From Paramacrobiotus metropolitanus (lineage: Eukaryota > Tardigrada > Eutardigrada > Parachela > Macrobiotidae), in the NCBI RefSeq assembly GCF_019649055.1, contig NW_026570464.1, positions 1-64,000 on the forward strand: a stretch of 64,000 nt of DNA, read 5' to 3'. Below the pieces are notes generated by a model, which made no database searches, was not told the DNA's origin, and saw only the letters and a list, made by a program, of their open reading frames with translations. Position numbers and translations under genes: made by a program. This document shows positions 36,556-61,282 of the stretch, one piece after another (position 1 is the first letter of the stretch; each line of letters opens with the position of its first letter).

Positions 36556-36559
36556 GTTT

Positions 36560-36946
36560 TGTCAGAGACCGCTCATTCGAGGCGGTAGACACCTCTCGTG
36601 GCTTTCTCTCGCCCGCCCGCACACGGCAACGCCGTTCGTGCCGCGCTATTACGCTGCTTACTCAGCGTATACTTTGTCTACGCTGACCAATCAGCGCATT
36701 TCTCTGCACTCTTGGGGGCGGAGCCCTGCGCCTACGGGCGATTCCATGCTTTGCAGCATCAGCTGTTGCACACCGGCAGCACGCGGATTAATTATCACGA
36801 TTCCTAGCTAGCGCACTGCAGGCACTTTTTCCATAGCTTTTTCCCACATCGGGTTTTCCGTTGGTTTTGTGTTGTTGTTGCTTTATTGTTATCACAATAA
36901 AGGCTATTGGCCCCGTTTTCCATCTGCTTCTGTGTCATATCTGACA
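36560..36946 (+). repeat. 5' LTR
   Basis: 387 bp, TG...CA, with a terminal TGTCAGA/TCTGACA inverted repeat. AATAAA at 36896-36901 sits inside a perfect 9-bp hairpin (36881-36902, CTTTATTGT/ACAATAAAG). I see no clear TATA box. Confidence 0.93.
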
Positions 36947-36956
36947 TGGTAGCAGA
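36947..36956 (+). other. Primer-binding site, initiator-Met tRNA type
   Basis: TGGTAGCAGA directly follows the LTR. It is complementary to the ...TCTGCTACCA 3' end of animal initiator methionine tRNA over 10 bases, then diverges. A short match of this kind is usual for LTR elements. Confidence 0.75.
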
Positions 36957-37970
36957 CTCGCTCGGTTTTCTTTCCTGCGAGACCTCTGATCCCCAGTGAA
37001 GGCAACAATCGGTCGAACTACGCTGATCGCCTATAAGTAGGCCAGCCATCCCGCGACCACCATCTCCTGCATCATACAGGTTTCACTGGAAACCTGCAGC
37101 GCGACGGAATAATCATACGGGTCGGCGCCTATAAGTAGGTCCCCCGCAGCTTTGGCTCCCCGCGCAAAAACTGCGTTGGGTACGTCGCTGTTGACCAAAT
37201 AAGCACCCTACCGGGTTGCGTTGATACGGGTCAGCGCCTAAAAGTAGGCCTCCCGCAGATTTGGCTCCCGGCGCAAAAACTGCGTTCGGTACGGTCCTGA
37301 TACTCCATTACGCCCTATCGGGTGCGCTGCGGCCCTTACGGTTGAAAAGGGTGAAGTGGAACGACGGAGCAGCACTGTCTGGAGCGAACAAACCGCCGGT
37401 ATGACCTGTTGTGGCGTCGTAGGTTTTCGTAGAACCTTTTGAAAATTCGAGGTTTCCGCGTAGAACCTAAGCAAAACCCTTCATAACTTTTTAACGCTTA
37501 TCCGATTTGCTAAAAATTGGCATTTTCGGATTCCTCGTGAAATTCTGTACTAGAAAAACGTAACAGAACTCTCGAGAAATTTTTTCCTGACTTTTGACGA
37601 ATTATCGGCGAAAAATAATCGCCATTTTGTCCAGCCGGAATTTTCGCGAAAAAGTCGCGTGACGTCAAAGTGGTAACTTTCCATAAAATTTCGACCAATC
37701 AGAACACGTGGGAAACTTCCCCATGTTATAAGACTCGTAATGAGTCATATTGTTTTTTGAATTTTGCTCACTGCACGCTACTCGTGACGTAGAGCTTATT
37801 GCAAGACCACTTTGTAATCGACGTCACACTGGTCAGTAGCGTAACATAGGGCCATAGGAAGCTAACGCTAAACCTGAGCTCTAGCGTACCTGACCAGCAC
37901 CAACCAGCGACAGCCAACCCACCGTTCCGGTCCGGACCAAGATCAAAGAAATCTTTTAAGTCCCAATACC
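36957..37970 (+). repeat. 5' leader with tandem repeat units
   Basis: This is the 1-kb untranslated leader between primer site and gag. A unit of about 68 bp containing GCGCCTA(T/A)AAGTAGG, CGCAG, TTTGGCTCCC and GCAAAAACTGCG occurs at about 37117-37184 and 37226-37294, and its CGCCTATAAGTAGGCC core occurs a third time at 37028-37043. ACCCTACCGGGT (37205-37216) and CCCTATCGGG (37313-37322) are small hairpins that recur upstream of the 3' LTR. A structured leader could serve packaging, dimerisation or translation; the function is inferred. Confidence 0.65.
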
Positions 37971-38531
37971 ATGGGCCAAATCGAAAGCGCCTTGGCCAAG
38001 GTGATGCCATACACCAGCCATGAGCAACTCCAACGGAGATTGCTCAGTCCTATGGACGGGCGCCAACCTAACGAATACAAGAAGCAACTGGGGAAGAACT
38101 ATGCCACACGCGACCCACCGGGAACTTACGGTTTCCGCAGGGCCAAACAGAGCGGTTCTGAACCAGACGAGCCAAACTCGGCCGGCTCAACGAGTTCGGT
38201 CGAGGCCAAAGCCAGGCGGGACAGACAAATCCTGCCGGCCGACTTGGAAACCAGCGACGAACTAGTCTGGACGCCACCAGGGACGATACATTCCAGAAAG
38301 CGTCCGACGGATTGTCCGAGGCCAACCAGCCTCTGGACAGCCAACCTGGCGCCGATAGGACGGCCCAGGCCAACAGTGTCCCTCGGGACTTGGCGCATCA
38401 ACCGGCCATACCTGGTCCGGGCCAAGTCAAACTTGCGGCGCCAACGGCGGGCACAAGTGAGGACAAGACACGCACGGACGGACCAGGGCCAAACAACTTG
38501 GCCCGGTCCAACCTTGATGTCCAGGATCTGA
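37971..38531 (+). CDS. gag: Gag N-terminus (myristoylation-type start)
   Basis: The ATG opens a frame beginning MGQIESALAKVMPY. Gly at position 2 and Ser at position 6 fit the N-myristoylation consensus used by retroviral matrix proteins to bind membranes. The first 105 or so residues look like a folded, basic domain; after about residue 105 (near 38280) the reading frame becomes low-quality while the -1 frame carries the gag sequence (DDTFQKASDGLSEANQ). A one-base loss at CCAGGGACG would explain this. A ribosomal -1 shift is possible, but I see no classic slippery heptamer. I therefore treat this frame as the first part of the Gag at 38312-42127. Confidence 0.75.
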   Translation: MGQIESALAKVMPYTSHEQLQRRLLSPMDGRQPNEYKKQLGKNYATRDPPGTYGFRRAKQSGSEPDEPNSAGSTSSVEAKARRDRQILPADLETSDELVWTPPGTIHSRKRPTDCPRPTSLWTANLAPIGRPRPTVSLGTWRINRPYLVRAKSNLRRQRRAQVRTRHARTDQGQTTWPGPTLMSRI

Positions 38532-41500
38532 CAGCACGTCCAACCCTACCGGGCTCGGACCAGATCCAACCTGAGGCACTAACGGTGGCCAAAGGTGGAC
38601 GCAAGGCAAAGGGCCAAGCCAAAAAGGCTGGTCCAAAGGCACATGACCAGGGCCAACAGCCCGCGAGTCAGTCGCCACTCATGTTTGAGGACGATGGCCC
38701 AACCTACACAACGCCATCGCCAACCAATGACGTCATCGGCGCGTCTGGCCCGTCCAAACCGGACGAAGAGCCAATTGTGGACCTGGCCCAACTTAGCAGG
38801 GCCACAGCCAGGATGGACCTAAACCGGCCTTCCTGGGACACAACCCGCGCCAGCGTCACCCCGCCAAAGCTGAACCAGGCAACCCGGCCCGAGGAGCTCG
38901 ACGAAATCGACCAACTCAGGACCACAGTACGGGACCTGACCAAACAGCTGGCGGATATTGCAGAAGCAACCCTGCTATCCGAACGTTGGATGCAGGACGA
39001 GATCTGCAGGCACAAAGACCTTGCGTTCCAATCGGACGCAGAGGCTAAACGTGTCTCGGCCATACTGGCCCAGACCCAACTTGAGCTAACTCAGCTCAAG
39101 TTGTCACCATGTCCTAATGCTGAGCGAGACCAGCTCTACACGACAATCCACAGCCTAGAAACGGCTGTGGCGGGCCTTGAAGCCCTGCTCACCTCTACGA
39201 GGACCGAGCTGGCCAAAGCCAGGGACGACTTGGCTGCGGCCCGGGCCACTATTGATGACACTGACTCTGAGGCGGACCGCCTTCAGAGAGAAAACGAGCG
39301 TCTCACCGACGACTTGTCCAATTTGCAGGACGAAATCAACCGCCTGCGGAATGGATACAACCTTCTTTATGAGAGTCACCAGAACCTCATGAAGACTATC
39401 CAACAAGGAGGACTGATGAGCCAAACGGTTCAGCAGAAGGAAGCACAAAACGTGCAACTCCAGCAACAGATCGTTGCCCTCCAGAGCCAGCTCAACACCG
39501 AAGCAACCATTCGGGTCCAACTTGAGCAAAACAGCGCCATTGGACATCAAAACTTCGTCCAATTGGAGCAGGCCTTCAATCAAGCCAAACAGGTGATCCA
39601 GGGCCAACAAGACCGGATCATCGTTTTGGAGGCCAATAATGCCGGCCTGGTCAAAGACTACCAGGCGGCCACCCAACGTATAACTGAGCTAAACGAGGAC
39701 CTGGAAAGGCTAAACATGGAAAACGCCTGTTTAGATGCGGAGAAATCACATCTCGCTGATATAAACTCCGAGTTGTCCGCAGGACCACCGTCCTACCATA
39801 CCTTTCCGGACTCGGACACACAACGTCGACAAGAAAAAGTCGACGAGGCTCTGCGGCAGGGCCAACGCTTCTACCGAGAGCCAGTGTATCACCAGCAGAA
39901 CTATCAAGTGAATATGGCTGTGGAGGGACCATCGGTTGGAGATCTTCCAAAGGGGCCAACCATACCCGCGCCTCCCAGCCCGGTGGACCGCGGAACATCA
40001 ACGGCGACAGTAACACTGCCGCCACCACCAGTCCCGGTCACCACAACAGCCACTACTGGTCCAACGACGATAGTGACGCCTGCAACGCAGACTTATCCGT
40101 CTACGTCAAGCGGGTCAAGCTTTGATCCGAGCCAGGCAACACCCAGCCACAGCTACTTCGGATCAAGGCCACCATACCCGTCCTTGTATCCGTCGATATT
40201 CCCGAACATGGACTTCAATTTTAGTCCACAACCGGCCACAAGCCAGGCTCACACCAGCGCCATGGATCCAAACCGGACCAACCCAATGAGCCCAACGCTC
40301 GGGCCATCGGCCATGCAAGGACAGATAGGAGGCCAAAGTGGTACACCAACGGTGCAACCACCACTAGTAGGCCAACTAAGCCTATTTGGCCCTCCTATCA
40401 CGGCGGCAGCCCAAACGGGCCAAGCTCAGCCACAGATGGGCCAAACCACGCCCACAGGCCAAAACGTGCCCCAACCACCAAGCATACCGCCAACAGCGGC
40501 CATGCCACCAGGACCAGCAGCCCAACCAGGCCAGGGCCAAAATGCGCCCATGTTGGTCCAGCTCCCGAATGGAGCATACGCATGGATGGCGTCCAACGGG
40601 GCTATCCAGATTGTACCGGGCCAACCATTGTGGGCCCAACCTCAGCAAGTGCCGCTAACACCACAGCAGCCAACACCTGCCCCATCACCACCGGTCAGCC
40701 CAGCTCTCTCAACCAGAGAGCAAATTAAAGAAATGGCCCAAGAGATGGGAAAAGCCACCGCGAGAGCTCAAGTCCGCACCGAGTTGCCAAAATTTGATGG
40801 CAACAAAACAATGGTGAAAGGATGGCTTGCACAGGTCCGACGAATCTGTAAGCAGTCGTTCGATCTGAAGAAACCAGATCCGGACTTTATGAGCCGCATT
40901 TACATGGCCGTATCAGATCCTGTAAAGGAATGGTACACTGGCCAAGCCAATCGTGAAGACGAGGACGGTTGGACAGTGGAACAGTGGCTTCAGAAATTTG
41001 CCACTCGTTACGGCGATGATAAGCAGCAGGCAACTGCCATGGGAGAAATCACACATCGGTACTACCAGCACCTGACCGAAACCCCTGAGCAGTATTACGA
41101 CGCCATGCTGACCCTCCAGACGCGCGCTGGCTTGGACGACACCATGACCCTCCACTTCCTGAGGGAGAACGTGAAGGAGCCAGAACTGCGCCGCGCTCTG
41201 GACATCCGGATACCAAAGTCACCGGCAGAATTCCGGGACTATGTCCGGCAGTACACAATGGGAAAGCCGGAGTACGAAGGGAAAGCAAGCCGCGGATACC
41301 CAACAAGCCGAACGGCCATACAAACGCCACCAGCCCAAGTCGTACCACAACAACCGGCACTCTATCCCCCGCAGGCTACACAAGCCCAAATTGAGGCAAC
41401 ATACGCCGCCATCGCGGCCTTGAACTTAGCCTCCCCACAACGTGGGTCTACACCGCCAAATGGCGGTAGTGGCGGCTATGGCCAGGCCCGAAACCAGGGC

Positions 41501-42127
41501 AACTATGGCTACAGCCAGGGCAACAGCGGCGGAGGACCAAAGGGCAAGTTCTCCAAGGGCCAAAACGCCAGCTTTAGCGGAAACCAAAGCGGCAACAGCC
41601 CTGGAGGACAAAACCGAAGCCCGGGAGGCCAGAGTGGCCAACGCCAGACTCTGAGCCCCGAAGAGGCCCGCAGACAAGAGGACATGTACATCGACCGGGT
41701 CGAGCGCATGTTCGAGCGATGGGCCAAAGACGGGATAATTACCTGCAACCACCACCCAACCGACGGCTGTGGCTACGCGAACAGGCCATATGGCGAAAAT
41801 CCAAACCGAAAATGGTATTTGGATTGGCGAAATCGCTATCAAAAAGGCTACCCTACCGGGTCAGCCAATCCTAACCGCCTCGGCTTAGTGCCACCCAAAC
41901 AACCCAGACCACCGCGTGGTAATGGAGGGACAGGCAGCCGAAGGCAGTCCACCGGCTCAGGAAGTGGGTCCGGTGGCGGCAACCGACAGAATGGTCCAAA
42001 GCAGGGATACCAGACGCCAGCCAACGAAAGGGCAGCGTTACCACCCATACCGGACCAGCTGGTGAAGCCAAATGGCAACAGCGGCGGCGGCCCTAACCGG
42101 GCCAGCCCAACCGCGGGAAACGCATAA
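38312..42127 (+). CDS. gag: Giant Gag: coiled coil, capsid domain, Gly/Asn-rich tail
   Basis: 1,271 codons, open from about 38280 without its own ATG (it begins at a TTG), so it continues from the 37971 frame. In order: a Pro/Ala/Gln-rich linker (residues 1-190); a long coiled coil (about 193-490, for example LQRENERLTDDLSNLQDEIN); a Pro/Gln/Thr-rich linker (500-800); a Ty3/gypsy capsid domain (about 820-990) with LPKFDGN, WLAQVRR, YYDAML and RAGL motifs; then a Gly/Asn/Ser/Gln-rich RNA-binding-like stretch (about 1040-1115) and a C-terminal region with ITCNHHPTDGCGY. There is no CCHC zinc knuckle. Ordinary Ty3/gypsy Gags are 300-500 residues, so this one is several times larger. It would form the virus-like particle; the coiled coil suggests multimerisation or cargo or host-protein binding. 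Capsid identity is solid; the roles of the extra parts are inference. Confidence 0.88.
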   Translation: MSEANQPLDSQPGADRTAQANSVPRDLAHQPAIPGPGQVKLAAPTAGTSEDKTRTDGPGPNNLARSNLDVQDLTARPTLPGSDQIQPEALTVAKGGRKAKGQAKKAGPKAHDQGQQPASQSPLMFEDDGPTYTTPSPTNDVIGASGPSKPDEEPIVDLAQLSRATARMDLNRPSWDTTRASVTPPKLNQATRPEELDEIDQLRTTVRDLTKQLADIAEATLLSERWMQDEICRHKDLAFQSDAEAKRVSAILAQTQLELTQLKLSPCPNAERDQLYTTIHSLETAVAGLEALLTSTRTELAKARDDLAAARATIDDTDSEADRLQRENERLTDDLSNLQDEINRLRNGYNLLYESHQNLMKTIQQGGLMSQTVQQKEAQNVQLQQQIVALQSQLNTEATIRVQLEQNSAIGHQNFVQLEQAFNQAKQVIQGQQDRIIVLEANNAGLVKDYQAATQRITELNEDLERLNMENACLDAEKSHLADINSELSAGPPSYHTFPDSDTQRRQEKVDEALRQGQRFYREPVYHQQNYQVNMAVEGPSVGDLPKGPTIPAPPSPVDRGTSTATVTLPPPPVPVTTTATTGPTTIVTPATQTYPSTSSGSSFDPSQATPSHSYFGSRPPYPSLYPSIFPNMDFNFSPQPATSQAHTSAMDPNRTNPMSPTLGPSAMQGQIGGQSGTPTVQPPLVGQLSLFGPPITAAAQTGQAQPQMGQTTPTGQNVPQPPSIPPTAAMPPGPAAQPGQGQNAPMLVQLPNGAYAWMASNGAIQIVPGQPLWAQPQQVPLTPQQPTPAPSPPVSPALSTREQIKEMAQEMGKATARAQVRTELPKFDGNKTMVKGWLAQVRRICKQSFDLKKPDPDFMSRIYMAVSDPVKEWYTGQANREDEDGWTVEQWLQKFATRYGDDKQQATAMGEITHRYYQHLTETPEQYYDAMLTLQTRAGLDDTMTLHFLRENVKEPELRRALDIRIPKSPAEFRDYVRQYTMGKPEYEGKASRGYPTSRTAIQTPPAQVVPQQPALYPPQATQAQIEATYAAIAALNLASPQRGSTPPNGGSGGYGQARNQGNYGYSQGNSGGGPKGKFSKGQNASFSGNQSGNSPGGQNRSPGGQSGQRQTLSPEEARRQEDMYIDRVERMFERWAKDGIITCNHHPTDGCGYANRPYGENPNRKWYLDWRNRYQKGYPTGSANPNRLGLVPPKQPRPPRGNGGTGSRRQSTGSGSGSGGGNRQNGPKQGYQTPANERAALPPIPDQLVKPNGNSGGGPNRASPTAGNA

Positions 42128-42219
42128 GGTCGGGGAGTATCGGCAATTCACCCGACCTGAGACCGGAACCGAAACCGCCGGACATAACCCATACTATTAC
42201 TAATCCGCACTTAACCTAC

Positions 42220-43512
42220 ATGGATCCCAAACTAACCCCTACGGCTCAACAGCCCACCAGTGGATCCAGGCTTTGCGCCAAACCAGCGCCTAAGCCACCT
42301 GGCTCTAAAAGCGATGCCAGGCCGACAGTCGTATTGCAAGCGACCAAGTCGATTTTCGGAGCCTCAACTAACCCCAAGGCCAACCGATCACCAAAACTCG
42401 GAGCCTCAACCAACCCTAAGGCCAACCGAATACGTGGCAAAGCGAGACGTCGCACCACGAACATGACGTATCCTAAATCGGCGTCAGACACATCCTCCGA
42501 CAGCGCAACGGAAGGATGGTCCGTACAAGATACGGACAGCGAGGTCGGATCCTTAAAAGATTGGACAACCGAACCTCTTGAGGCGTCAAGTCCCCGTACC
42601 TGCTGGCCCCAGATCGGTGGACAACCCCTCGGCACCACACCAACGGTGCGAACTATAAACAGCTCACGGACCTTCCTTAACACCAAAAGTATGTTTTCCA
42701 CCCTACGGGTTGCGGAAACACCACCACAGGAAGAGTCTGTCCAACAGCAGCCACCTTCACCTCACTACGCTCCTGATGATCCAGGACCAGTGTCGCTAAT
42801 CCCCATTGTACCAGTGATGCGGGAAGTGACAGTTGGCCTGGATGAGAATCGCAAACCGAAAACCGTCAGAGCATGGACGCACAAAGTCCAAATTGGACCA
42901 GTCCACACGCTCGCCATGCTGGACACTGGAGCCGAGACATCCCTCATCAGCCAGCAATTCTGCACCGCCAATGGCATCAAAACAGAGCCGTTAGGACGGA
43001 ACACCAAAATCCTTGGTGTCGGCGGACAAACCGCCTTCGTGGTCTCCCACTGCTGCACCGTACAAGTGACACTGCAGGGATACAAGAGCCACCACACGTT
43101 CTTCGTCCAACCGACGTTAACGGACGTGCGCGTATTACTTGGCTGTGACTATCTCCAATCCAAGTTTACCTTCATCCTTAAGCCAAACGAAGAAATCGTT
43201 TGGGACGCGGTAAAGTCTATCCCGATACCAGAGGCACCGGGACCCGATGATGAAGTGAGAGTTAATCGGCTTGATCACCCGAAAGGTTCTCCTTCTACCT
43301 GTTGGGAATGCCTGGACACCATTGAAAGCCTCATATGGGAGCTGCGCGTCCATAACGCAATCGAGCGTTATATGACTCAATTCCGTGCAGGCATACTCAA
43401 GCCAAATCACGGGATAGTAAAGACTATCCCGATACCAGAGGCACCGGGCCAACGGCCGGTGCCTGACAGAGAAACTAACGTACCGCTAACGTGGGCGCAG
43501 ATAGCAGACTAG
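42220..43512 (+). CDS. pro: Aspartic protease polyprotein segment
   Basis: 430 codons from ATG, 92 bp after the gag stop and in a different frame from gag. The N-terminal 190 residues are low-complexity and include a tandem GASTNPKANR duplication. The protease core follows: LAMLDTGAETSLIS (active-site DTGA, Asp about residue 234) and LLGCDYL (about 306), matching the retropepsin pattern. After it KPN-x-x-IV-...SIPIPEAPG occurs twice, an internal duplication. It cleaves Gag and Pol during particle maturation. The frame ends at TAG (43510-43512) and then stays open in the same frame past a second TAG (43597-43599) into the linker, so it may once have been continuous with Pol. Whether the stops are read through or are mutations cannot be told from one copy. 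Confidence 0.85.
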   Translation: MDPKLTPTAQQPTSGSRLCAKPAPKPPGSKSDARPTVVLQATKSIFGASTNPKANRSPKLGASTNPKANRIRGKARRRTTNMTYPKSASDTSSDSATEGWSVQDTDSEVGSLKDWTTEPLEASSPRTCWPQIGGQPLGTTPTVRTINSSRTFLNTKSMFSTLRVAETPPQEESVQQQPPSPHYAPDDPGPVSLIPIVPVMREVTVGLDENRKPKTVRAWTHKVQIGPVHTLAMLDTGAETSLISQQFCTANGIKTEPLGRNTKILGVGGQTAFVVSHCCTVQVTLQGYKSHHTFFVQPTLTDVRVLLGCDYLQSKFTFILKPNEEIVWDAVKSIPIPEAPGPDDEVRVNRLDHPKGSPSTCWECLDTIESLIWELRVHNAIERYMTQFRAGILKPNHGIVKTIPIPEAPGQRPVPDRETNVPLTWAQIAD

Positions 43513-43611
43513 TACGGACCATTCGCCCAAGAACTGGACGACTTGGTCCAAGAAGGAGCTTTATGGGAGGACGAACGTCTAGCCCTCGTGTGGGAATAGA
43601 GGGAGTACCAC

Positions 43612-44580
43612 ATGGAAATGCCGAAAGCACTCCAAAAGATGTGCACGGATTTTTTCGACGACGTAATAACGCTTCGAAAACAAGTGGCCCAACATCCTGG
43701 CTTAAGCGTCAGCATACGGCCAAAGTACGACCTGAGCCTGACTAACGTTAGGACCATACCGGAACCATTGCCGGAAGCTGCACCGCATATAGCGACAAAA
43801 GTGCGCTTCAATGATGGCCCACACCCAGAACAGGGAGGCCATCGAAGGGACACCAGCCAGAACGAGCAGGACCCTTCATCAGAGGAAGTCCAACTGACTT
43901 GTCCTCTATGTGGAGACGGCGTTGAAGCGGTAATACGGGCCATACAAACCCGTTCGACTCAACGTTGGGCAAAAGGCCGACCAGCCTCGCCACTCCCAAA
44001 TGGGGACCGTCCAACCACTTTGGCGGAACCGGACGAACCTGAAAAACAGGGAATCGCAACCGGAGCGCCAGAGATCCAAGAAATGGATCCCGTGACCAAA
44101 CCGGCACCAACAGTGGCCGGAGGAGCGCCAACCTCTAACGAGGGCAATGGCAAGCCAAAACCCGAGCAAGAAGACAAACCCGAGTCTACCGATTCGGACG
44201 TCCAAAGCTCAAGTGACTCACCGGACACGGACTCCGATAACCAATCATCGGAGGAGTCAAGCGATGAAGAAGAGGACACAGAAATTCTCCAACTCCGAGC
44301 CGAGGCACCGGTAATCCGCAAACTGCGGACCGAACGTCCAACGGACTGCCTCAAGGAAGAGAGAGAAGTCGTCTTCGTTCATCAGCGGTACAACTTACCA
44401 GCCTACTCAACTTGCTGGATTAAGGTCCGGTCCTATCGGACTATGGACCCGGGACGGCCAATCCACTTTAAATCGCTGAGACGACCACACCGCTTGGTTA
44501 TACCGATCGAAGCGGAGGTCCAAACTCGAAACAGCGAACACGCGTGGATTCAGGTCCAAAATAAGTCCCGACGCGACTAA
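43612..44580 (+). CDS. Pol linker protein, first part
   Basis: 322 codons in the same frame as the protease, between two in-frame stops (TAG 43597-43599, TAA 44578-44580). It starts with a helical segment (MPKALQKMCTDFFDDVITLRKQ) and a CPLCGDGV Cys pair, and a long acidic Ser/Asp/Glu stretch follows (about residues 195-230). It ends with a beta-rich segment (YNLPAYSTCWIKVRSYR...HAWIQVQN) that runs through the stop into ILRKGAKVG. That last part resembles the segment just upstream of the reverse transcriptase, as if duplicated. There is no catalytic motif. Confidence 0.65.
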   Translation: MEMPKALQKMCTDFFDDVITLRKQVAQHPGLSVSIRPKYDLSLTNVRTIPEPLPEAAPHIATKVRFNDGPHPEQGGHRRDTSQNEQDPSSEEVQLTCPLCGDGVEAVIRAIQTRSTQRWAKGRPASPLPNGDRPTTLAEPDEPEKQGIATGAPEIQEMDPVTKPAPTVAGGAPTSNEGNGKPKPEQEDKPESTDSDVQSSSDSPDTDSDNQSSEESSDEEEDTEILQLRAEAPVIRKLRTERPTDCLKEEREVVFVHQRYNLPAYSTCWIKVRSYRTMDPGRPIHFKSLRRPHRLVIPIEAEVQTRNSEHAWIQVQNKSRRD

Positions 44581-44610
44581 ATTCTCCGCAAAGGTGCAAA
44601 AGTTGGCCAT

Positions 44611-44975: not shown

Positions 44976-44978
44976 AAC

Positions 44979-50577: not shown

Positions 50578-50641
50578 TTACCGCTACGACAGGGGAATCT
50601 TCCGCGCCACCAGTGCCCAGCCTACGTCTACCGACGAGGCA

Positions 50642-52393: not shown

Positions 52394-55300
52394 TTGGAGC
52401 TGAACCGCCCAACCAGGCCCACTCTACCAGCGTGGAGTGGCCCGCCAACGGACTTAGATGTTCCTGGCCCTACCAGGCCAGGCCGGTCCATACTCAAGCC
52501 GAAGAAGGCGGAACCACCGACTTTGACGCTTCGCGGCCTACCGACCAAGAAGAAGAAGTCGCCGCCAAAGAATTTTCCTGGTAAACGACATGTGCTTTCA
52601 CCACCGGAAGCACCAAAGATTCCGTCAGGAACAACTCAGCCCTTGCGGGACGAACCTCCAACGAGGCATCGAATCCGACTGACTCAAACAGAGTCAGGGG
52701 ACGACCCGCACAACCATGTTGTAAGCGAGATCATAGAACTTGATCTTCGCTTAAACCTTACTGAGGAGGATATGCGCCAGCGACTACGCGCCGGCGATCC
52801 AACACTAACGGACCGTGAGATTGACCGCATCAACCGCGGTTGTCAACAGATGGTCCAAGGACGCACAATTCTCATCAGAAAACTGATGGCTATGCGGAGC
52901 AAGAGCCAGGCACTTCGCCAACGCAAGTTGCCCAGCGAAATAATCGAGCATGCCATCTACATCCGTGGCCCTCACATTAACCCAAGGGCATGGACAGTTG
53001 AACCGCGCCCACGACCAGGCCAGCCAGTGGAAGACGAACTTCCACCGGAGGAAGCAGCAAGTGAGGACGAACATCCTCAACTGCCAGCGGCCTTCTGGGG
53101 CGTCTCCTCTAGCGAGGAGTCGGAGATCGAGGAAGACTTGGACGAAAATGTCCAAAGGGCGTTATATGAGACCAGTCAGGTCCGGCTACCTTCAACGAAG
53201 GAATCGCCACGCCGAAGCCGATCTCCATCAAAAAGGACTTCTCCTGGACGCGCCACATCAACTCCGGCGCGAATGCCCAGTATGCCGGCCATCGAACCGG
53301 CGCCTGCCAGGTTCACACCGAGCCGGCCAGGCAAGTCCCAAACCAAAGAGAGGATGGATACAACACCTCCTCCAGAGCCAACGATGACCATTACGGTGGA
53401 ACGAATCGCAGCACCTACGGTGTCCGCAGATTCAACACTTGAGCCAGTAACGGTCACGGTTAGGACTCCTGCACCAGTGGTCGCAGAATCGGCCAGAATG
53501 ACGGTGCGGATAACTCCGGCTGTCTCGGCCCAAGAAGTGGAAGCTGACGCGGCCTTGATGCCCATGAGTGCTCTCACTCCTATCGAGCAGAGACACTTAC
53601 TGATCCATGCTGACCATAACGAGCGCCGGCAATATCCGTTCCTGCTCACAAAGAGACAGGAGGCCAAGGAGCAGAATCGTATGGAAGAATACGACATGAT
53701 AACCGAAATGCTCCTATCCTTGGTCCTACGGATGATAGACGATTACCGGCGCCGTCGCAACCAGAAAGCCTTTCCCCCACCGGAGGAAGACTTTAGAATG
53801 GCTGAAACCCTGTCGTCAAACGCGCCACCAACCGTGGTATCGCCAAAGACGCAGGCACAACCACCAGCGGCTTCAGAGCCAATGGACACTTCTCCGTCTG
53901 GACCTGTGGCCATTGTGCCACAGCCAGAACCAGCCCAACTGGAGGAGCCACCGAAGGCCATTTCGTCGGCGCAGGATACAACGGGCCAAAGTCAGTCCGG
54001 AACAGGGCCAACGGCCGCTGCTCCGATAAACTTGACGAACATGCCCGCCAGCATCGACGACATACCTTTCGGCCGTCCGGTTACTTTCCCAGCAACAGGG
54101 ACAATGGAGAATTTTGCACTCGGCCTGGGTGTAATTCACTCAGCTTACTCCCAACGGAGTAAGCAGCCGAGAAAAGCCAAAAACCCAGAGAGGGCCAAAC
54201 CGGCCTCTCGTCCAACTTCTCCACAACCGAGGACCAAACCGGCCACTCGTCCAAACTCCCCTCAACCGAGTGGAAGTCAGGCGACCGTATCACGGCCAAC
54301 ATCTAATCCAGAGGCCGAACGGAATCGCCAGAAGAAACAAGCGGCCAAAGACAAGAAAAGTCATGAGGCCAAGATCGCCCAGCTCGAAAAACGGCTGTCA
54401 GGCGATGAAGACGTCCAAGTCCTATCGGACAGTATGGACAAGTCACAAGAGCCAGCACAATATCGTCCATGGCAAGAAGAGGAATACGAGCCAGTTCCCG
54501 AAGGTGAACCGCCTTCGGAGGAGACAATGCTCCCCGCGCCTGGAGACGATGAAGCTGAACTCCCGGACCCTGGACCGGAGGCCACGCACATTGAGATCCC
54601 AACGGGTCCATATGTGCGCCAATGGGTGGCAGCGGCCAGGATCATGAGACGCACAACAGGAAGAGACATGTACCAGTGTCTCGTCCGAGTTCTCCGAGCC
54701 AGAATGGTACATGGAGAAGAATTCAGAGGGCTACCGCCAGCGGACCGTGTACTAACGGCACCCTTTATGCGGCGAGTAGTAACTCTCATCCTGGATATGG
54801 GACTTCTGGTCCGCACACACCGTGACTGGACCAGCATGATGGAGCTTCACGTGCCTCATCGGCCAGCAGGGCTTTCCCGTAGCCGGAATTACCCCTTCCA
54901 CCAGATATGCAGGACCATCGCTTACCTGCATAACCCAAAAGGCTCCAATTTAGTCGACATCGTTAGGACCCTTAATGCTCTCTATTACAAAGGAGAGGGT
55001 GACCTGGAAGAACTAGAGCGCATCATACTCGACGAGTTGTTAGCGCTGGTTAAGGATGGAACCTTGGAGACGACCAACGCCTACCGGGCGGAAGCTATCC
55101 GCTTCACCATTCCCGGGTTCATCCCGCAGAAGACCCAACGGTCTCTGTACGTGTCACACGATGTGGGCACAAAATGGGACCCGGATAGGAAGAAAGCGGT
55201 CGGACCGCCGAAAGACAAGTTGACCGGCAGCCAAGGAGGCATACTTGATCTCCCAAGTGGCCAAACTGCCTGGTCCAAAGAACTTGCCGGTAGAAAAGCC

Positions 55301-55411
55301 TCCTCGACCATCCGTTACAAGAAGAGAATTGGCTGCACGCCAAGAAGCGGAGGACGAGATGCGCGCAGCCGGAATTCGACCTGCGTCCAGGGACACAGTG
55401 TCACTGCCTAA
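52394..55411 (+). CDS. Accessory protein B, C-terminal part with winged-helix-like segments
   Basis: 1,005 codons in the same frame as the 50642 ORF; 52394 is a TTG, so the true start is upstream through the TAA at 52169. After Pro/Lys-rich linkers comes a helical part (TDREIDRINRGCQQMV), an acidic patch, SR-type RRSRSPSKRTSPGR, a long Pro/Thr-rich stretch, and a Lys-rich coil. Two segments follow with the helix-turn-helix-plus-wing pattern: about residues 737-820 (QWVAAARIMRRTTG ... FMRRVVTLILDMGLLVRTHRDW) and about 831-913 (FHQICRTIAYLHNPKGSNL ... ILDELLALVKDGTLE). Such folds bind DNA or act in protein complexes. Near 55220 the coding signal moves to the +1 frame. Assignment of winged helices is by pattern only; no family is named. 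Confidence 0.75.
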   Translation: MELNRPTRPTLPAWSGPPTDLDVPGPTRPGRSILKPKKAEPPTLTLRGLPTKKKKSPPKNFPGKRHVLSPPEAPKIPSGTTQPLRDEPPTRHRIRLTQTESGDDPHNHVVSEIIELDLRLNLTEEDMRQRLRAGDPTLTDREIDRINRGCQQMVQGRTILIRKLMAMRSKSQALRQRKLPSEIIEHAIYIRGPHINPRAWTVEPRPRPGQPVEDELPPEEAASEDEHPQLPAAFWGVSSSEESEIEEDLDENVQRALYETSQVRLPSTKESPRRSRSPSKRTSPGRATSTPARMPSMPAIEPAPARFTPSRPGKSQTKERMDTTPPPEPTMTITVERIAAPTVSADSTLEPVTVTVRTPAPVVAESARMTVRITPAVSAQEVEADAALMPMSALTPIEQRHLLIHADHNERRQYPFLLTKRQEAKEQNRMEEYDMITEMLLSLVLRMIDDYRRRRNQKAFPPPEEDFRMAETLSSNAPPTVVSPKTQAQPPAASEPMDTSPSGPVAIVPQPEPAQLEEPPKAISSAQDTTGQSQSGTGPTAAAPINLTNMPASIDDIPFGRPVTFPATGTMENFALGLGVIHSAYSQRSKQPRKAKNPERAKPASRPTSPQPRTKPATRPNSPQPSGSQATVSRPTSNPEAERNRQKKQAAKDKKSHEAKIAQLEKRLSGDEDVQVLSDSMDKSQEPAQYRPWQEEEYEPVPEGEPPSEETMLPAPGDDEAELPDPGPEATHIEIPTGPYVRQWVAAARIMRRTTGRDMYQCLVRVLRARMVHGEEFRGLPPADRVLTAPFMRRVVTLILDMGLLVRTHRDWTSMMELHVPHRPAGLSRSRNYPFHQICRTIAYLHNPKGSNLVDIVRTLNALYYKGEGDLEELERIILDELLALVKDGTLETTNAYRAEAIRFTIPGFIPQKTQRSLYVSHDVGTKWDPDRKKAVGPPKDKLTGSQGGILDLPSGQTAWSKELAGRKASSTIRYKKRIGCTPRSGGRDARSRNSTCVQGHSVTA

Positions 55412-55880
55412 CGCAGCTGGCCGGTCCAGACCTCCTTCGCCAGCCTTATCGGCCACATCCACAAAGAGCCGAAAGGCCACGGCTACAAAGGAAAAGAGGG
55501 AAAAAGATCCCTCACCGCAGCCAAGCGATTCGGACTCTGAGGACTCACAACCGGAGGACTCAGAGGATGACGAACAAGAAGAGCCGGACCAGGACCAAAC
55601 CATGGAGTCCCAAAAGTCTGACTCTGATGATGATGATGACCAAAGCCCTGGTAAACTTACCATGGACCTCCCACCGGACCATGACATGGAAACCCCACCC
55701 GGTGACGAGAATCAGCCACCTAACGGTGACCAGGACATGGAGGACCAGGGTGGCGCAGAAGGCGCCAACCAGGAACAAGGCAACGCAGAGGGCGCTAGCC
55801 AAGAAAGTCCAGCCAGCGTGGACAACGCTGAGCCAAGTGGAAGCGCTGCATCGCCCGAACGGAAAGGATGCGCGACTTGA
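55245..55880 (+). CDS. Accessory protein B acidic tail/linker
   Basis: 211 codons. It begins at a TTG within the previous frame, so it is most likely the continuation of protein B after a frameshift near 55220 rather than a separate gene. It has a basic helical start (RRELAARQEAEDEMRAAGIRP), a Lys/Ser-rich patch, then a long Asp/Glu/Ser/Gln-rich acidic region (SDSEDSQPEDSEDDEQEEPD, SDDDDDQ). The stop at 55878-55880 overlaps by 13 bp the ATG of the next ORF (55868), in a different frame. The acidic run could be an interaction or charge-mimic region. Confidence 0.65.
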   Translation: MISQVAKLPGPKNLPVEKPPRPSVTRRELAARQEAEDEMRAAGIRPASRDTVSLPNAAGRSRPPSPALSATSTKSRKATATKEKREKDPSPQPSDSDSEDSQPEDSEDDEQEEPDQDQTMESQKSDSDDDDDQSPGKLTMDLPPDHDMETPPGDENQPPNGDQDMEDQGGAEGANQEQGNAEGASQESPASVDNAEPSGSAASPERKGCAT

Positions 55881-56665
55881 CCTCATCGGAATCAGATGAC
55901 GGTGAGATTCCATGGACTTTACCTGACCCGTGCCCGGCCATACCGCGGATCGACTATGTCTCGCCACCAACACCAAAGGTGGCCAGGAAATGGCCCGGCG
56001 GCCCTTCTAAAAAGCCGCGGATCTCCAACTCTGATAAGCGATGGGCATACATCAAGGCGGCCCTTAAGGCGCTGTCCCAAACGGGTACAACCCTTGCTAC
56101 AGGGGGCTTGGCCTTCCAACTCATCAAGAAATGGAATGGCCCGCCGCTGACCAAGTCCAAAGTGATGAAGTACATACAGATGGCCTACCATGAAGGAGCC
56201 ATATTACGGACCCATCTGCCCAATACGCAGATCTTCTACACTTTTCCACCGGAAAAAGTGGATAAGGCTCCTCAAGGTTACTGGGAATGGCGTAACGCCG
56301 TCCTCACAGTGCTGACCACCACTCAGCACCCATTAGGCCTCACACGAGGCGAAATAGCCAACCAGCTCCTGGGCCGATACGACCTGAACGTCATCTCGCA
56401 CCATCCACAACTTATCGATGGGATAGCATACATGCCGAACCAGGGCCGCCCTAGCGGGTTGTACCCTATTTGCGAGGACGTCAGATACGTCGTACGGAAG
56501 ATGTTAAACGAAGGATGGCTCGTGCAAACTGTTGACGAGCCCGAGGCCCAGCAGCGGTACAGACAACATAACATCCCACCGGATCGTTACGGCCCTCGTC
56601 CCACCGAATCCGACTCCTTGGCCTCAACCAAGTCCAAGAAGAAGCGGCGTACTTACCATCAGTGA
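55868..56665 (+). CDS. Accessory protein C: tandem winged-helix-like protein
   Basis: 265 codons with a proper ATG that overlaps the preceding stop. An acidic start (SSESDDGEIPW) is followed by a KKPRISNSDKRW basic patch and two helical modules of about 70-90 residues: residues about 55-125 (AYIKAALKALSQTG ... KVMKYIQMAYHEGAILRTHLP ... YTFPPE) and about 138-225 (WRNAVLTVLTTTQHPLGLTRGEIANQLLG ... VRYVVRKMLNEGWLVQTV). Each reads as helix, helix, recognition helix, then a beta wing, as in winged-helix DNA-binding domains. The C-terminus SKKKRR looks like a nuclear-localisation signal. This suggests a nuclear DNA- or chromatin-binding role for an element protein; it is inferred from secondary-structure pattern, not from homology. 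It may be fused to protein B in the ancestral form. Confidence 0.72.
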   Translation: MRDLTSSESDDGEIPWTLPDPCPAIPRIDYVSPPTPKVARKWPGGPSKKPRISNSDKRWAYIKAALKALSQTGTTLATGGLAFQLIKKWNGPPLTKSKVMKYIQMAYHEGAILRTHLPNTQIFYTFPPEKVDKAPQGYWEWRNAVLTVLTTTQHPLGLTRGEIANQLLGRYDLNVISHHPQLIDGIAYMPNQGRPSGLYPICEDVRYVVRKMLNEGWLVQTVDEPEAQQRYRQHNIPPDRYGPRPTESDSLASTKSKKKRRTYHQ

Positions 56666-56855
56666 CCTAGGCTTAGAATTCGCATAGGGTCTAGGGGGTG
56701 ATCCCGAAATAATTAACCGGGCAAGAAAAGCCTAGTTAACAAATCACACGTAAAATCATAGGGACGTAAAACATAGGGCGTAATTATTATAGGGACCCGT
56801 CATAGAAAGCGGACTTAACCTCATTCTGCAAGTTTCATTTCTGTTACCACAGAGA
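56666..56855 (+). promoter_or_regulatory. Intergenic spacer with splice-acceptor-like end
   Basis: There is no coding frame. The last 45 bases hold a branch-point-like CTTAACCTC and then TTTCATTTCTGTTACCACAG, a good match to a pyrimidine tract plus CAG acceptor, ending 3 bases before the start codon context of ORF D. This would fit expression of ORF D from a spliced subgenomic RNA. The donor is not identified. Confidence 0.5.
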
Positions 56856-58814
56856 ATGGGACTTACATCGCAGCAGAAATACGAACCGCGATGCTCGGAC
56901 TGCAGACGCAACAGCGGCTATAGCATGACACATCCTCACCGCCGGGACAATTCCTCACGGGAGTTGTTCCCCTGCGCATACCACCTGCGGCCGGGCTTCC
57001 GCGACGAGAGCGAACGAGCCTACTGCTTCTACCTGGAAGTGGTGAGAGGCAACTTTGATGCATATATACACATGACCAGCCGCGACGGAAGCCACCTGAT
57101 TCCCCTACTGAGGGATCATGAGCAGATAGAGATCTACGATCTCTACATGCAACGTAGTGGCGCCCGACAACCTGGCTGGTGCAGTACCGGAACTCCAATT
57201 CCTCCACTCAGCCAATCGGCTCGAGAACGGAAGGACGAGCGGGACCGGGAACGTCGATCCCGCAACTCAGGATCTGACCAGTCCTCAGGGCGTGGCCCAA
57301 CGGCCGCCCCGAGAAATTACGACCGTCAGCGGCCACCATCAGGCTCTCGATCCTACGGACACGAGTTGCCCATACCCATGGAATACAACCAGGGGTTCGA
57401 AAAAACGATCCTGGAAAACATCAACAAAGCTATGGTTGACCAGGTGGCCCGACAGCTGATGGAAGGTGGATTGCTGGATGCCTTGAAAAGCCAGCCAGCG
57501 CGCACCGAGCAGCGCACGCCACTGGCACCGCTACCGCGGAACCCAGATGACTTACGTCATCAGATCCAGAGCCGCAACCAGGACCAAAGTGGCCGTCAAA
57601 GCCGTAGCCAGCCCGAGCGCCAACCGCGCACATCACCCGGGAAGCGTAACGAGACCGAGTCCAGCCTGGTTGTCGCACAGTCCACCAAGCGACCAGAACG
57701 AAGTGTCAGCTCAGTGGCCCACAACATCAGTATCCAAATACCAATGGACACTGAGGCCACACTGCCAGCGGCGGACCTACCGGTCCAGCCTGCACCAACT
57801 GGCAGCACTTCGGACTTCGATCCTTACAAGTATGCTGAGGACCAGGGCATCAACATCCGGCCACTTCCCCACCGGGTTGTGACGGATTATATTATGGGCG
57901 TCATCCCATACCCCAGGGACAGATTGGCCCAAGTGGATGCCATGGTCCAGAACCTGCAAACCTTCGTCACCCGGTCCGGACTTGAAATGGAAATGCAGCG
58001 GAAAGATTGGCCTCGTGATTTTAGCATGGCCGAACACATACAGAACCGCGAGGGCTACCCAAAGGTCCGTGACAATGCTCTATCGAGCATCACGGACGTG
58101 AACTTACTTGGACAGCCCATCACCAGACCGGACTGGAACGACTTGTGCCAACTGCACATTAAGGACGACCAACTTGATGTTGTCAAATACCTGGCTCAGT
58201 TCGTCCTACCGGACGCAAACGCCAGTTTCATCATCGCAGCATGCAGAGCCGCCATAGACATCCCATGGAAACCGGCTGACCACAAGGATGACCCAGAAAC
58301 ACAGAAATACTCCTATAACGGCACGATGATACGCATCTTTGCCGTCAGGCTTGGTCATTTACACTGCCACTGGGAACTGGAAGTTGCCTACCGGCAAGGA
58401 CAGATCGTTCCTCGACTATTGACCCAAGTGGCCCTTCTCGGAAACCAAATCCACGAGATCGAAGCGGGAGTCAAAATCCAGAGTGCCCTGAATGTATTCA
58501 GGAGCCACGTCAAAGATTACCGCTATAAACGTCCAACGGACTTCGACGACAATGCGGAAGTGTTCGTCAACCGAACAGCAACGAGGAAACTTCCAACGAA
58601 GTTTCGAACTCAGCGATCCTCAACAGGATCGTCCACACATGTCCAAACCCAGGCCGTCCAACCAGACCAAGATCCTCAGCCGACCAGCACCTCCAGCCAA
58701 CACCAACAAAACCTGACAGAACAGGAATTGGCGGCCATGGAGGAAAGCGTCGTCGACCCACTCAACCCTGGGTTGGGCGACGGCGACCAAGCCGGACAAG
58801 GAGGGCAGGGATAG
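56856..58814 (+). CDS. Accessory protein D: Cys/His N-terminus, Arg/Ser-rich, helical C-terminus
   Basis: 652 codons with an ATG start. Residues about 13-45 contain CSDC, a HPHRR pair and CAYH, spaced like a small zinc-binding module. An RERKDERDRERRSRN block (about 125-140) and Gln/Arg/Ser-rich linkers follow, then an ordered C-terminal half (about residues 320-590) with many conserved-looking hydrophobic/aromatic positions (for example HRVVTDYIMGVIPYPRD, WNDLCQLHIKDDQL, LHCHWELEVAYRQGQ). The end is Gln/Ser-rich and ordinary. I see no signal peptide or transmembrane segment, so it is not an envelope. The family is unknown. It is the last frame before the 3' UTR and is uninterrupted over nearly 2 kb. 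Confidence 0.78.
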   Translation: MGLTSQQKYEPRCSDCRRNSGYSMTHPHRRDNSSRELFPCAYHLRPGFRDESERAYCFYLEVVRGNFDAYIHMTSRDGSHLIPLLRDHEQIEIYDLYMQRSGARQPGWCSTGTPIPPLSQSARERKDERDRERRSRNSGSDQSSGRGPTAAPRNYDRQRPPSGSRSYGHELPIPMEYNQGFEKTILENINKAMVDQVARQLMEGGLLDALKSQPARTEQRTPLAPLPRNPDDLRHQIQSRNQDQSGRQSRSQPERQPRTSPGKRNETESSLVVAQSTKRPERSVSSVAHNISIQIPMDTEATLPAADLPVQPAPTGSTSDFDPYKYAEDQGINIRPLPHRVVTDYIMGVIPYPRDRLAQVDAMVQNLQTFVTRSGLEMEMQRKDWPRDFSMAEHIQNREGYPKVRDNALSSITDVNLLGQPITRPDWNDLCQLHIKDDQLDVVKYLAQFVLPDANASFIIAACRAAIDIPWKPADHKDDPETQKYSYNGTMIRIFAVRLGHLHCHWELEVAYRQGQIVPRLLTQVALLGNQIHEIEAGVKIQSALNVFRSHVKDYRYKRPTDFDDNAEVFVNRTATRKLPTKFRTQRSSTGSSTHVQTQAVQPDQDPQPTSTSSQHQQNLTEQELAAMEESVVDPLNPGLGDGDQAGQGGQG

Positions 58815-60889
58815 GCCAATGGCCATTCCTGCATGTTGGCCCTAAAAAGGGACCAACATCACCTGAAACCGGACTTGAACACCATAATGGGTGCAATCCA
58901 ACGGTTGTTACCCTCGCCCAACAAACGTGGCTTACGGCCATGTACCGTCCACCTCACCGGACCTAAATCTCTGGATCTTAACCGGATTCCCCGGATAGGC
59001 TCTGGCTTAGCGGCTGGGACCATGAATTTGGCTCGGCCATCCCAGACCATCCGACGGAGTCCACCGGACCGAACTTGGCACAACGCCTAAGTTCACCGGC
59101 ATGGAAGGGATCCAGCGCCCAGAAGGCGGCGACGGCCCGCATAGAAGTTGCGACAAGCCGTGGATCAGCCTGGCCCGCATACAAGTTGCGACAAGCCAAG
59201 GCCAAGTCCTGGCCCATAGAAGTTGGACCAGGCCCACTATGCGTCTAACCGACCATACGTGGCTCACGAGTCTAGTTGCCATACCAAGCAACTGGGACAA
59301 GTGAGTTTGGGAGCCACATAGAAGTTGTGGTACACCCACTTTGCATGCCATGTCCAACATCCTCACCACGGACCGCCCAGTGGCCCATCCAAAAGATGCA
59401 CCGCCCCGAGGCCAGAAGAGGATGTTCCTAGTCAGCAGACCGACTCCTTTGTGGAAAACGCCTACCGGCGCCCACAACTTAATTTTTTTGGAGTTTGGCC
59501 CGGCCAACCTGATGTTTTCGTCAGACGCCACTTAATTTTGTTATGGCCACGGTCTCAGGGAAACCTACCCTGCCAATTGGACATGGTAGCCAACTCATGG
59601 CCTACGGCCAGTGAGGCGGACCAGACTTAACCAGTCTGCAATTTTGGACCGTCGACAAAACGACTAAGTCCTTTTGGCCCGCCATTAACCTTGGACCGTC
59701 GACAAAACGACTAAGTCCATTTGGCCCGTCCAACGACGTGGCCGACCGAAAATTTTCTAAGTCTTTTGGCCCGTCCAACGACGTGGCCGACCGAAAATTT
59801 TCTAAGTCTTTTGGCCCGTCCAATGACGTGGCTCATCAAAAAAAACGACTAAGTCCACATCGGAGAGCCAAACCCGGTTATACAGGACCCACACCACAGC
59901 AAAGGCCTGAAGCAAGGCCATACTATTTTGGAACCCTGTATCCCGGCCCAGAGCATGTCAGAGACCGAGTTTGGACCGCCCCAACGGGTTTGGTCCATTA
60001 CACCACTTGGTCCTCGGACTTAGAAATTTTTCCATTATGGCCCTCCTGGACTCAGAAGATTTTTGGACCTAGGCGCATGACCAAACCGGCATGCAAGGCC
60101 AAAACCGGTCCAAGTTAGAGACCCTTATGGGCCATCCAAACGGAATCGGTCCAAGCATACCATTTCGGTCACAGGAGCACCTCTCCTGTCCAGAGACATC
60201 ACTCTGGCCCACCATGGACCGCCCAATTGGGCTTGGTCCACCATAATCAGGAAGGGGACAACCTGTCCTTGCGCATGCAACCGTGCCTTCCATACACCGC
60301 ACCGCTGGATTTACTTCACTGGACCCCTGTGGATATCTCTGGGAACCGTCGCCCCGGATTCACAGGACCAGACATATCCTACCGGATAAAGCGGACCGTT
60401 GACTAGGACCCGTGTGGACATTGGCCCTGTGGTAACCCTAGTCGGAATAAGCCTTTCTGTTTTGTCTAGTTTTTTAACCAAACCTGGTTTTTCTAGACTT
60501 TATTAACAAAAGATGATGTTTTTATTTAGCCATTAACCAAAGGAATTGGCTTTGGGATCTCTAACTATGATCTTATTTTCTTTAATTCTCACCGGAATTG
60601 TGATCTTTTTTATTTCGATGTTTAACCTACGAGCCTTATAAACTTTATTTTTTTACTTGTTCGACCAACCAAGCCTTCAAACCCCACTGGAACCCCCTGC
60701 AACCAGAGTGCACTCCAGATTTCGGCCGTTCGGTGCACTGCACCGCGGGTCTGGAGGAAGCGACCCTATCGGGTTTAGAGACAAAGTGGCATCCGGCCCT
60801 ACCGGGTATCGGATCCTGGCACCCTACCGGGTTGGCCAGGGGCAGAGTCGGAAGGTGCTCGCAGGAGCTCCCACTCCCGCCCAGAGGCA
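58815..60889 (+). other. Long 3' untranslated region of the giant element
   Basis: 2.1 kb with no protein-like frame, though GGCCAA/CCAAC-type composition continues until about 60.4 kb. It contains tandem repeats (next entry); a hairpin at 60464-60498 (GTCTAG/CTAGAC outside, AACCA/TGGTT inside); a T-rich block (60460-60660); and three ACCC-TAyC-GGGT mini-hairpins (60763-60774, 60796-60807, 60821-60832). No strong polypurine tract abuts the 3' LTR: the preceding bases are CCCGCCCAGAGGCA. Confidence 0.6.
59644..59845 (+). repeat. 3' UTR tandem repeats
   Basis: A 28-bp unit (GGACCGTCGACAAAACGACT core) occurs twice (59644-59671, 59692-59719). It is followed by a 45-bp unit starting GGCCCGTCCAACGACGTGG at 59723, 59768 and 59813 (two exact copies and a partial one). 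The third, partial copy fuses back into the first unit's AAACGACTAAGTCC. Confidence 0.75.
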
Positions 60890-61278
60890 TGTCAGAGACC
60901 GCTCACTCGAGGCGGTAGACACCTCTCGTGGCTTTCTCTGTCGCCCGCCCGCACACGGCAACGCCGTTCGTGCCGCGCTATTACGCTGCTTACTCAGCGT
61001 ATACTTTGTCTACGCTGACCAATCAGCGCATTTCTCTGCACTCTTGGGGGCGGAGCCCTGCGCCTACGGGCGATTCCATGCTTTGCAGCATCAGCTGTTG
61101 CACACCGGCAGCACGCGGAATCATTATCACGATTCCTAGCTAGCGCACTGCAGGCACTTTTTCCACAGCTTTTTCCCACATCGGGTTTTCCGTTGGTTTT
61201 GTGTTGTTGTTGCTTTATTGTTATCACAATAAAGGCTATTGGCCCCATTTACCATCTGCTTCTGTGTCATATCTGACA
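60890..61278 (+). repeat. 3' LTR
   Basis: 389 bp, near-identical to 36560-36946. Differences seen: one C/T near the start, a 2-bp GT insertion in TCTCTGTCGCC, AATCA versus TTAAT, CACAG versus CATAG, and CATTTA versus CGTTTT near the end. AATAAA is at 61228-61233 in the same 9-bp hairpin (61213-61234). Confidence 0.93.
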
Positions 61279-61282
61279 GTTT

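Follow-up and report, generated by a model that had tools for sequence, protein, structure and literature searches.

A 64,000-nucleotide stretch of the tardigrade Paramacrobiotus metropolitanus (assembly GCF_019649055.1, contig NW_026570464.1, positions 1 to 64,000; hereafter the window) harbors a giant Ty3/gypsy long terminal repeat (LTR) retrotransposon of 24.7 kb (36560-61278, + strand) with about 9.7 kb of accessory coding sequence of its own. By sequence comparison, this element is one copy of a group of giant Ty3/gypsy elements of 22-30 kb, and the sense strand of three families of this group has an excess of predicted short hairpins with a family-specific loop. With a confidence slightly above even, these hairpins are interpreted as multi-site docking signals on the genomic RNA for a protein of the element, which would gather or mark this RNA for packaging or export, protein and loop changing together. 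A preliminary description of the same DNA had recognized the element; two accessory genes (the open reading frames ORF A and ORF B), predicted winged helices in one of them, and the family-specific sense-strand hairpins are added here.

A loop was counted as closed when flanked by four or more Watson-Crick pairs, all hairpins being predicted from sequence. Each family displays its own loop on stems of varying sequence: YAHC in family A, to which the window element belongs, ACANA in family B, and CAATA in family C. In the window element, YAHC is closed in 42 of 811 cases vs 97 of 23,120 for other 4-nt loops (Fisher p 2.1e-28), and the antisense class in 1 of 354 (p 2.5e-6 for own vs antisense). 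The family-A copy C21 gives 41 of 622 vs 87 of 17,354, with 0 of 252 for the antisense class (p 5.9e-7). In family B, of which three copies were read, ACANA is closed in 25 of 156 cases in C104 (p 1.7e-27 vs other loops), 29 of 171 in C205 (p 2.5e-30), and 16 of 76 in C3, compared with about 0.6% of other 5-nt loops; the antisense counts are 0/15, 0/21, and 0/8, respectively. C205 was included in these counts despite the loss of most of its reverse transcriptase (RT) through integrase (IN) region. Family C, with two copies read, shows CAATA closed in 13 of 25 cases in C73, against 0.4% for other loops (p 2.9e-24) and 0 of 3 for the antisense of its class. Host flank closes the three loop classes in 5/889, 1/175, and 2/58 cases vs 0.5-0.6% for its other loops. 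When the best single 4-5-nt loop is taken instead, -log10 p reaches 10.9 (window), 14.8 (C21), 12.6 (C104), 17.2 (C205), and 23.0 (C73), whereas host flank reaches 3.0 and no loop scores above 3.9 when the window element is block-shuffled 60 times; in C68 (family C) it is only 4.9, for CAACA. Since the excess lies on the sense strand, any action would take place at the RNA level. The pattern looked for in dispersed packaging signals, a large number of genomic-strand hairpins with a common loop in excess of chance, is thus found here.

The window element contains 46 loop-class sites, 42 outside and 4 inside the LTRs. Five lie in gag, one in the protease, three in RT-IN, eight in ORF B, and six in the 3' noncoding region, the rest being spread over ORF A and spacers. 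Examples of these loop-class hairpins are:

47710-47727 (+): pol, CAAC on a stem of 7 bp
54143-54164 (+): ORF A, CAAC on a stem of 9 bp
57773-57786 (+): ORF B, TACC on a stem of 5 bp
58202-58215 (+): ORF B, TACC on a stem of 5 bp
58586-58605 (+): ORF B, CAAC on a stem of 8 bp
58614-58631 (+): ORF B, CAAC on a stem of 7 bp
60375-60388 (+): 3' noncoding region, TACC on a stem of 5 bp

The stems in the window differ from one another, with few repeats: three copies of ACCC/GGGT around TACC, two of CGTC/GACG around CAAC (within a tandem repeat), and two of GTCC/GGAC around TATC. Most distinct hairpins have C-G as the pair closing the loop: 54 of 67 in family A, 31 of 43 in family B, and 9 of 11 in family C. 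Compared with 200 shuffles per region (synonymous-codon shuffles for coding, dinucleotide shuffles for 3' noncoding sequence), own-loop counts lie above the largest synonymous shuffle in 13 of 17 coding regions, e.g. 8 vs a shuffle mean of 0.37 in ORF B of the window, 15 vs 1.10 in ORF A of C21, and 11 vs 0.34 in ORF A of C104. All six 3' noncoding stretches exceed the largest dinucleotide shuffle. Own-loop stems are fully kept between copies in 29/35 cases in family A and 26/29 in family B, control hairpins in 35/61 and 71/106 (pooled 55/64 vs 106/167, p 0.0005; sites in gaps, 3 own and 7 control in family A and 7 control in family B, were set aside). The loop itself stays within its class in 34/35 and 26/29 cases, respectively. 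Over the five stretches tried, local minimum-energy folding recovers 80 of 90 own-loop hairpins, compared with 98 of 226 controls.

In the proposed mechanism, the hairpins on the genomic RNA would act as many copies of one recognition signal for an element-encoded binder, the candidates being the predicted winged helices of ORF A, ORF B, or a one-knuckle Gag. Binding at many sites would gather and mark the unusually long RNA for packaging or export; as families diverge, protein and loop would change together, the loop thereby serving as a family address. The sequence itself establishes how many hairpins there are and on which strand, that they are family-specific and retained, and that the two genes are conserved; that the hairpins fold in the cell and are bound, by which candidate and for which step, is inference. 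More tentatively, and somewhat short of an even chance, the loops may constitute a private RNA address code, in which the family-specific loop is read by a co-diverging element protein and a family's handling is confined to its own 24-30-kb RNA.

A number of observations weigh against these docking signals. No excess over the largest shuffle is seen in the protease (1 hairpin, shuffle maximum 2) or RT-IN (3, maximum 3) of the window, in ORF A (0) or ORF B (1, maximum 1) of C73, or in the 5' leaders of the window element, C104, and C205 (1 each, maximum 1). In C68, CAATA is closed in only 2 of 11 cases, and CAAC is the second-best loop of the host flank (5/170). The looser class CAANA is closed in 3 of 47 cases in ORF A of C73, and the window, although not expected to show it, gives 4 of 175. 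The copies that revealed the loop classes also served to test them, and copies within a family are not independent. Compensatory changes are few, with 1 of 9 changed pairs in family A (controls 2/47) and 3 of 7 in family B (controls 10/68), and therefore the case for the hairpins rests more on retention than on covariation. The Gag capsid region, about 33% identical between families, differs as much as ORF A, so that coevolution with ORF A is not singled out. Finally, the predicted structures have a mean predicted local distance difference test score (pLDDT) of only 45 for ORF A and 39.6 for ORF B.

Short family words form a further set of enriched sequences. These are G[GT]CCAA/TTGG[AC]C in family A and CCGACYT/ARGTCGG in family B, and they could serve either as protein-binding sites on DNA or as mutually pairing words in the RNA. 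An unlikely alternative, though one of the two main rivals, is that the accessory winged helices bind these words in DNA and prevent silencing as VANC does, the hairpins being a second, separate feature. VANC proteins bind short motifs differing between transposon families (PMC5735166), and the words here are likewise largely family-specific. Relative to synonymous shuffles, they are in excess in gag, RT-IN, and ORF A (z 5.5-10.3) and in the protease (z 3.2), are not enriched in host flank, lie mostly outside hairpins, and occur almost strand-symmetrically in the 3' noncoding regions (9/14, 12/9, 12/9, and 15/9 in the two orientations). Summed over regions, they are also kept more often than words of the same composition (70/104 vs 723/1,501 in family A, 44/53 vs 323/470 in family B); family-A words are devoid of CpG and control words may contain it, which bears on this comparison and counts against the DNA-level alternative. 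Retention is no better than control in ORF B of family A (0/6) or gag of family B (12/19). Enrichment is absent from ORF B and the LTRs, the protease of the window (a family-A copy) contains 3 family-B words vs 0.7 expected, and other words tried (CCGACC, AAGTCGG, TACCGG) show little or no excess. VANC motifs reside in noncoding tandem repeats (PMC5735166), whereas the words here are found throughout coding sequence and are mostly dispersed; some are carried by a 45-bp tandem repeat at 59720-59854. Complementary words could moreover pair within RNA instead. Alongside the tentative address code, strand-symmetric words may act as a second layer with the same or a DNA-level role. The idea that enriched words explain everything was dropped, as words and hairpins hardly overlap. 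As separate observations, ORF B (56793-58814) contains many loop-class hairpins, yet no enrichment of family words, and a noncoding stretch (ACCGGAT...AGCGGAC...CTAGTCGGAATA) at 60380-60460 and at about 2580-2680 of L032 is, by eye, apparently common to families A and B.

The accessory part of the element comprises the following features:

49045-56665 (+): accessory ORF A, broken in the window into P0006-P0010
54608-55117 (+): helical stretch of ORF A and first predicted winged-helix module (module approximately 54890-55117), pLDDT 48-68
56040-56567 (+): C-terminal pair of predicted winged helices of ORF A, pLDDT mostly 60-80
56793-58814 (+): accessory ORF B, first Met at 56856, about 675 aa, one frame in the window
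58815-60889 (+): 3' noncoding region (loop-class hairpins, 6; family words, 23)

The preliminary description had spoken of accessory ORFs at 49.05-58.8 kb. They do belong to the element but are not separate, since those at 49.05-56.66 kb are pieces of one frame and the number of accessory genes is therefore two; several genes at 49-56.7 kb were accordingly rejected. ORF A of the window changes frame near 50.5, 55.2, and 55.9 kb and has an in-frame stop near 52.17 kb. It forms a single open frame of 2,540-2,559 aa in 5 of 14 fetched family-A stretches (C110, C6 twice, C21, and C23), and not in the other nine, one of which is cut by a contig end. Much of ORF A is low-complexity. Its C-terminus is predicted to hold winged helices: the model shows a helix-helix-helix-strand-strand unit followed by a similar one, i.e. 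three helices and a two-strand wing, and winged-helix matches were obtained for it. ORF B displays a zinc-finger-like CxxC...Cxx[CH] N-terminus, the remainder being helical. No convincing matches of the accessory proteins to Pfam or PDB sequences, or of the element to Rfam, were obtained. The further claim that the extra length is mostly coding agrees with the roughly 9.7 kb of accessory coding sequence, except for about 2 kb (58.8-60.9 kb) without an ORF of more than 180 aa.

Both accessory genes are under purifying selection, as judged from the ratio of nonsynonymous to synonymous substitution (dN/dS) between copies, a comparison that the preliminary description had proposed. The ratio is 0.18-0.23 for ORF A over all ten pairs of intact copies and 0.14-0.16 for ORF B over six pairs; four family-B pairs give 0.06-0.17 and two family-C pairs 0.04-0.11. 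For gag, C104 vs C205 yields 0.375, part of gag only being compared. These values bear on the possibility that the accessory genes are captured cargo and the hairpins functionless by-products of RT fold-back copying. Fold-back copying can produce perfect inverted repeats. Giant elements with extra domains do exist, Burro being one (PMC6431247). Such copying, however, should not favor one loop class per family, and other loops are closed at the host-flank rate; own-loop stems are better kept than controls, and cargo would sit poorly with purifying selection on both genes. This explanation is accordingly held to be very improbable.

Alternatively, ORF A or ORF B could be a nuclear export regulator of the unspliced genomic RNA, analogous to CERV of Cer1, with the hairpins as its response elements. 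CERV is a novel LTR-retrotransposon protein needed for genomic RNA export (PMC10309623). The hairpin excess on the sense strand would fit such a role, and a very long unspliced RNA would presumably need such help. An export regulator of this kind is regarded as distinctly unlikely.

Searches of the host assembly (169.8 Mb, 533 contigs) indicate that the accessory segment is an integral part of the element. Beyond the window, at least six same-strand LTR pairs lie 23.1-24.8 kb apart (C44, C1, C7, C27, C231, and C57) among the best 40 of 232 candidate LTR matches, and the size of the element is therefore no accident of one copy. The accessory marker P0010 yielded 141 matches, merged by eye into 128 loci, with identities clustering near 97, 79, 70, 39, and 35%. 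A same-strand RT is located 9-14.5 kb upstream of P0010 at at least 60 of these 128 loci, judged from the best 150 of 1,286 RT candidates; as controls, RT is found downstream on the same strand in no case and on the opposite strand in one. The search for other full-length copies suggested by the preliminary description thus revealed many further insertions carrying the 49-59 kb segment, and no intact same-family relative without it was seen among the copies read. A nested element or host exons within an ordinary Ty3 element, the other objection raised there, has next to no likelihood: no supporting point was found, the RT spacing is kept, other families have the same gene order, and no repeat of at least 40 nt flanks the segment inside the window element. 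C25 had been considered as a copy without accessory part, with Polinton-like foreign sequence downstream; this was discarded, as the start of ORF A, at 30% identity, follows its pol, which marks a further family.

Among the related copies, C21 measures 24.8 kb and is young, given a single LTR mismatch in 389 columns. The C104 element spans 30.4 kb (466090-496525) and the C205 element 22.3 kb (45728-68064). In C205, most of RT through IN is missing in frame (L027 1-7515), for which reason it was rejected as a full element. ORF A and ORF B are open and its LTRs 98.9% identical, which suggests that this copy without RT may have been mobilized by relatives. The four copies measured have LTRs shorter than 0.45 kb, with about 21-30 kb between them. 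The other families are 78-83% identical to that of the window in RT, and 29-33% in the C-terminus of ORF A and 27-30% in ORF B.

The remaining features of the window element are:

36556-36559: left copy of the target-site duplication GTTT, right copy at 61279-61282, identified from sequence
36560-36946 (+): 5' LTR, 387 bp, TG...CA ends
36881-36902 (+), repeated at 61213-61234: LTR hairpin, 9-bp stem, loop TATC, AATAAA within the 3' arm
36947-36956 (+): putative primer-binding site TGGTAGCAGA, directly 3' of the 5' LTR, identified from sequence
37971-42127 (+): gag, itself long, with coiled coil and capsid-like region, N-terminus MGQIES
42097-43512 (+): protease ORF, in the -1 frame relative to the gag ORF, with which it shares 31 nt
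43600-45120 (+): protease-RT spacer, two ORFs in the window copy
44910-48587 (+): RT (about 45390-45872), RNase H, and integrase
60890-61278 (+): 3' LTR, 389 bp, TG...CA ends

The LTR pair, the 4-bp duplication, and the complete Ty3/gypsy enzyme set previously reported for this DNA were confirmed. The aligned LTRs differ by 6 mismatches and 4 gap columns in an alignment whose 5' copy ran 2 bases past the LTR, the junctions read GTTT|TGTCAG on the left and CTGACA|GTTT on the right, and Pfam places aspartyl protease, RT, RNase H, and integrase in this order between the LTRs. Target duplications of 4 bp also border C21 (GGCA) and C205 (ACTG); none was seen in the inspected flanks of C104. GC content rises from about 0.43 outside to about 0.55 inside the element, and an A-over-T bias starts and stops at its ends. 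The primer-binding site TGGTAGCAGA is presumably a match to initiator tRNA-Met, and the LTR hairpin with its AATAAA is, we assume, reminiscent of the retroviral poly(A) hairpin. By eye, no canonical polypurine tract is present upstream of the 3' LTR (60870-60889). The sequence CCCGCCCAGAGGCA stands there instead, unchanged among the window element, C21, C104, and C205, its sole purine run by eye being AGAGG; plus-strand priming may therefore be unusual. The N-terminus of Gag, MGQIES, is taken to be myristoylation-like. The gag frame of the window copy is broken near 38.2-38.5 kb, and the CCHC pattern present once in gag of C21, C104, and C205 was not found in it. Gag/protease overlaps of 28-31 nt recur in the same three copies. 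The closest solved relative of pol is the Ty3 polyprotein (expectation values, E, 5.4e-94 and 2e-65), followed by 8r0s (1.3e-43), prototype foamy virus (PFV) integrase (2e-31), and other Gag-Pol entries (about 1e-28). In a check for an envelope protein by hydropathy only, the highest 19-residue mean across the 15 frames read was 1.39.

Other mobile sequences surround the element. Adjoining its 3' LTR, a Polinton/adintovirus-like coding sequence (61492-63760, - strand) harbors a packaging-ATPase-like ORF (Pox_A32, E 4.9e-4), to which an ATPase at C25:1227500-1229999 (L048) is similar by eye. What appear by eye to be a short hydrophobic-tail protein and a chromodomain-like end are also presumed there. 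Long inverted repeats at 27764-32166, with arms of 91-205 nt that are 86-95% complementary and 3.5-4.2 kb apart, are probably a DNA transposon, and 19103-19702 (+) holds an RT-RNase H remnant of another element.

These observations bear on the selection, export, and packaging of very long retroelement RNAs and on the ways in which related elements avoid handling one another's RNA. Within a single genome, loop class and accessory proteins differ cleanly between families whose RTs are about 80% identical, and such families offer natural pairs for specificity tests with isolated domains. If the docking signals hold true, dispersed packaging signals would extend from RNA viruses to LTR retrotransposons. 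In the literature searched, judged mostly from titles and abstract openings, nothing describing such a giant LTR element was found; likewise, no report of loop-coded hairpins across an LTR retrotransposon was found, most subscription papers lying outside the coverage.

Giant Ty3 elements are known from planarians (Burro) and plants (Ogre) (PMC6431247). The accessory set, unfamiliar to the preliminary description, differs from that of Burro in gene position and domains, and the element differs from Ogre in LTR length. Burro resembles the window element as a Ty3/gypsy LTR element that exceeds 20 kb, has huge ORFs, and includes accessory coding sequence of a non-enzymatic kind. Its extra motifs (MATH_TRAF_C, BIR, ankyrin, BCL2-like, SUMO-like, and env-like, the latter between BCL2 and the protease, PR) are located in ORF1 with gag upstream of PR, whereas the two extra genes of the window element lie after the integrase. 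No MATH, BIR, ankyrin, BCL2-like, SUMO-like, env-like, or dUTPase-like domains were found in Pfam at E up to 1 in ten window proteins, a set that does not comprise P0009. A hairpin system is not mentioned in the section describing Burro. Ogre owes its size mostly to LTRs of 1.9-6.5 kb (PMC6431247), compared with 387 and 389 bp in the window.

Three further systems resemble the element in part. Cer1 is, like the window element, an animal LTR retrotransposon with a novel accessory protein, and CERV acts on genomic RNA; CERV is made from spliced mRNA (PMC10309623), whereas the accessory genes of the window are recognized from the sequence. VANDAL of Arabidopsis with its VANC proteins shares family-specific short words and an encoded candidate nucleic-acid-binding protein, with the motifs in noncoding tandem repeats (PMC5735166) rather than also across coding sequence as in the window. 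A published model of RNA virus assembly invokes packaging signals that are dispersed and have a recognition motif in common; like the window hairpins, they consist of multiple sequence-structure motifs across the genome (PMC6281560). They are described for viruses, whereas here the genome is that of a retrotransposon, the hairpins are predicted, and the loops differ between closely related families.

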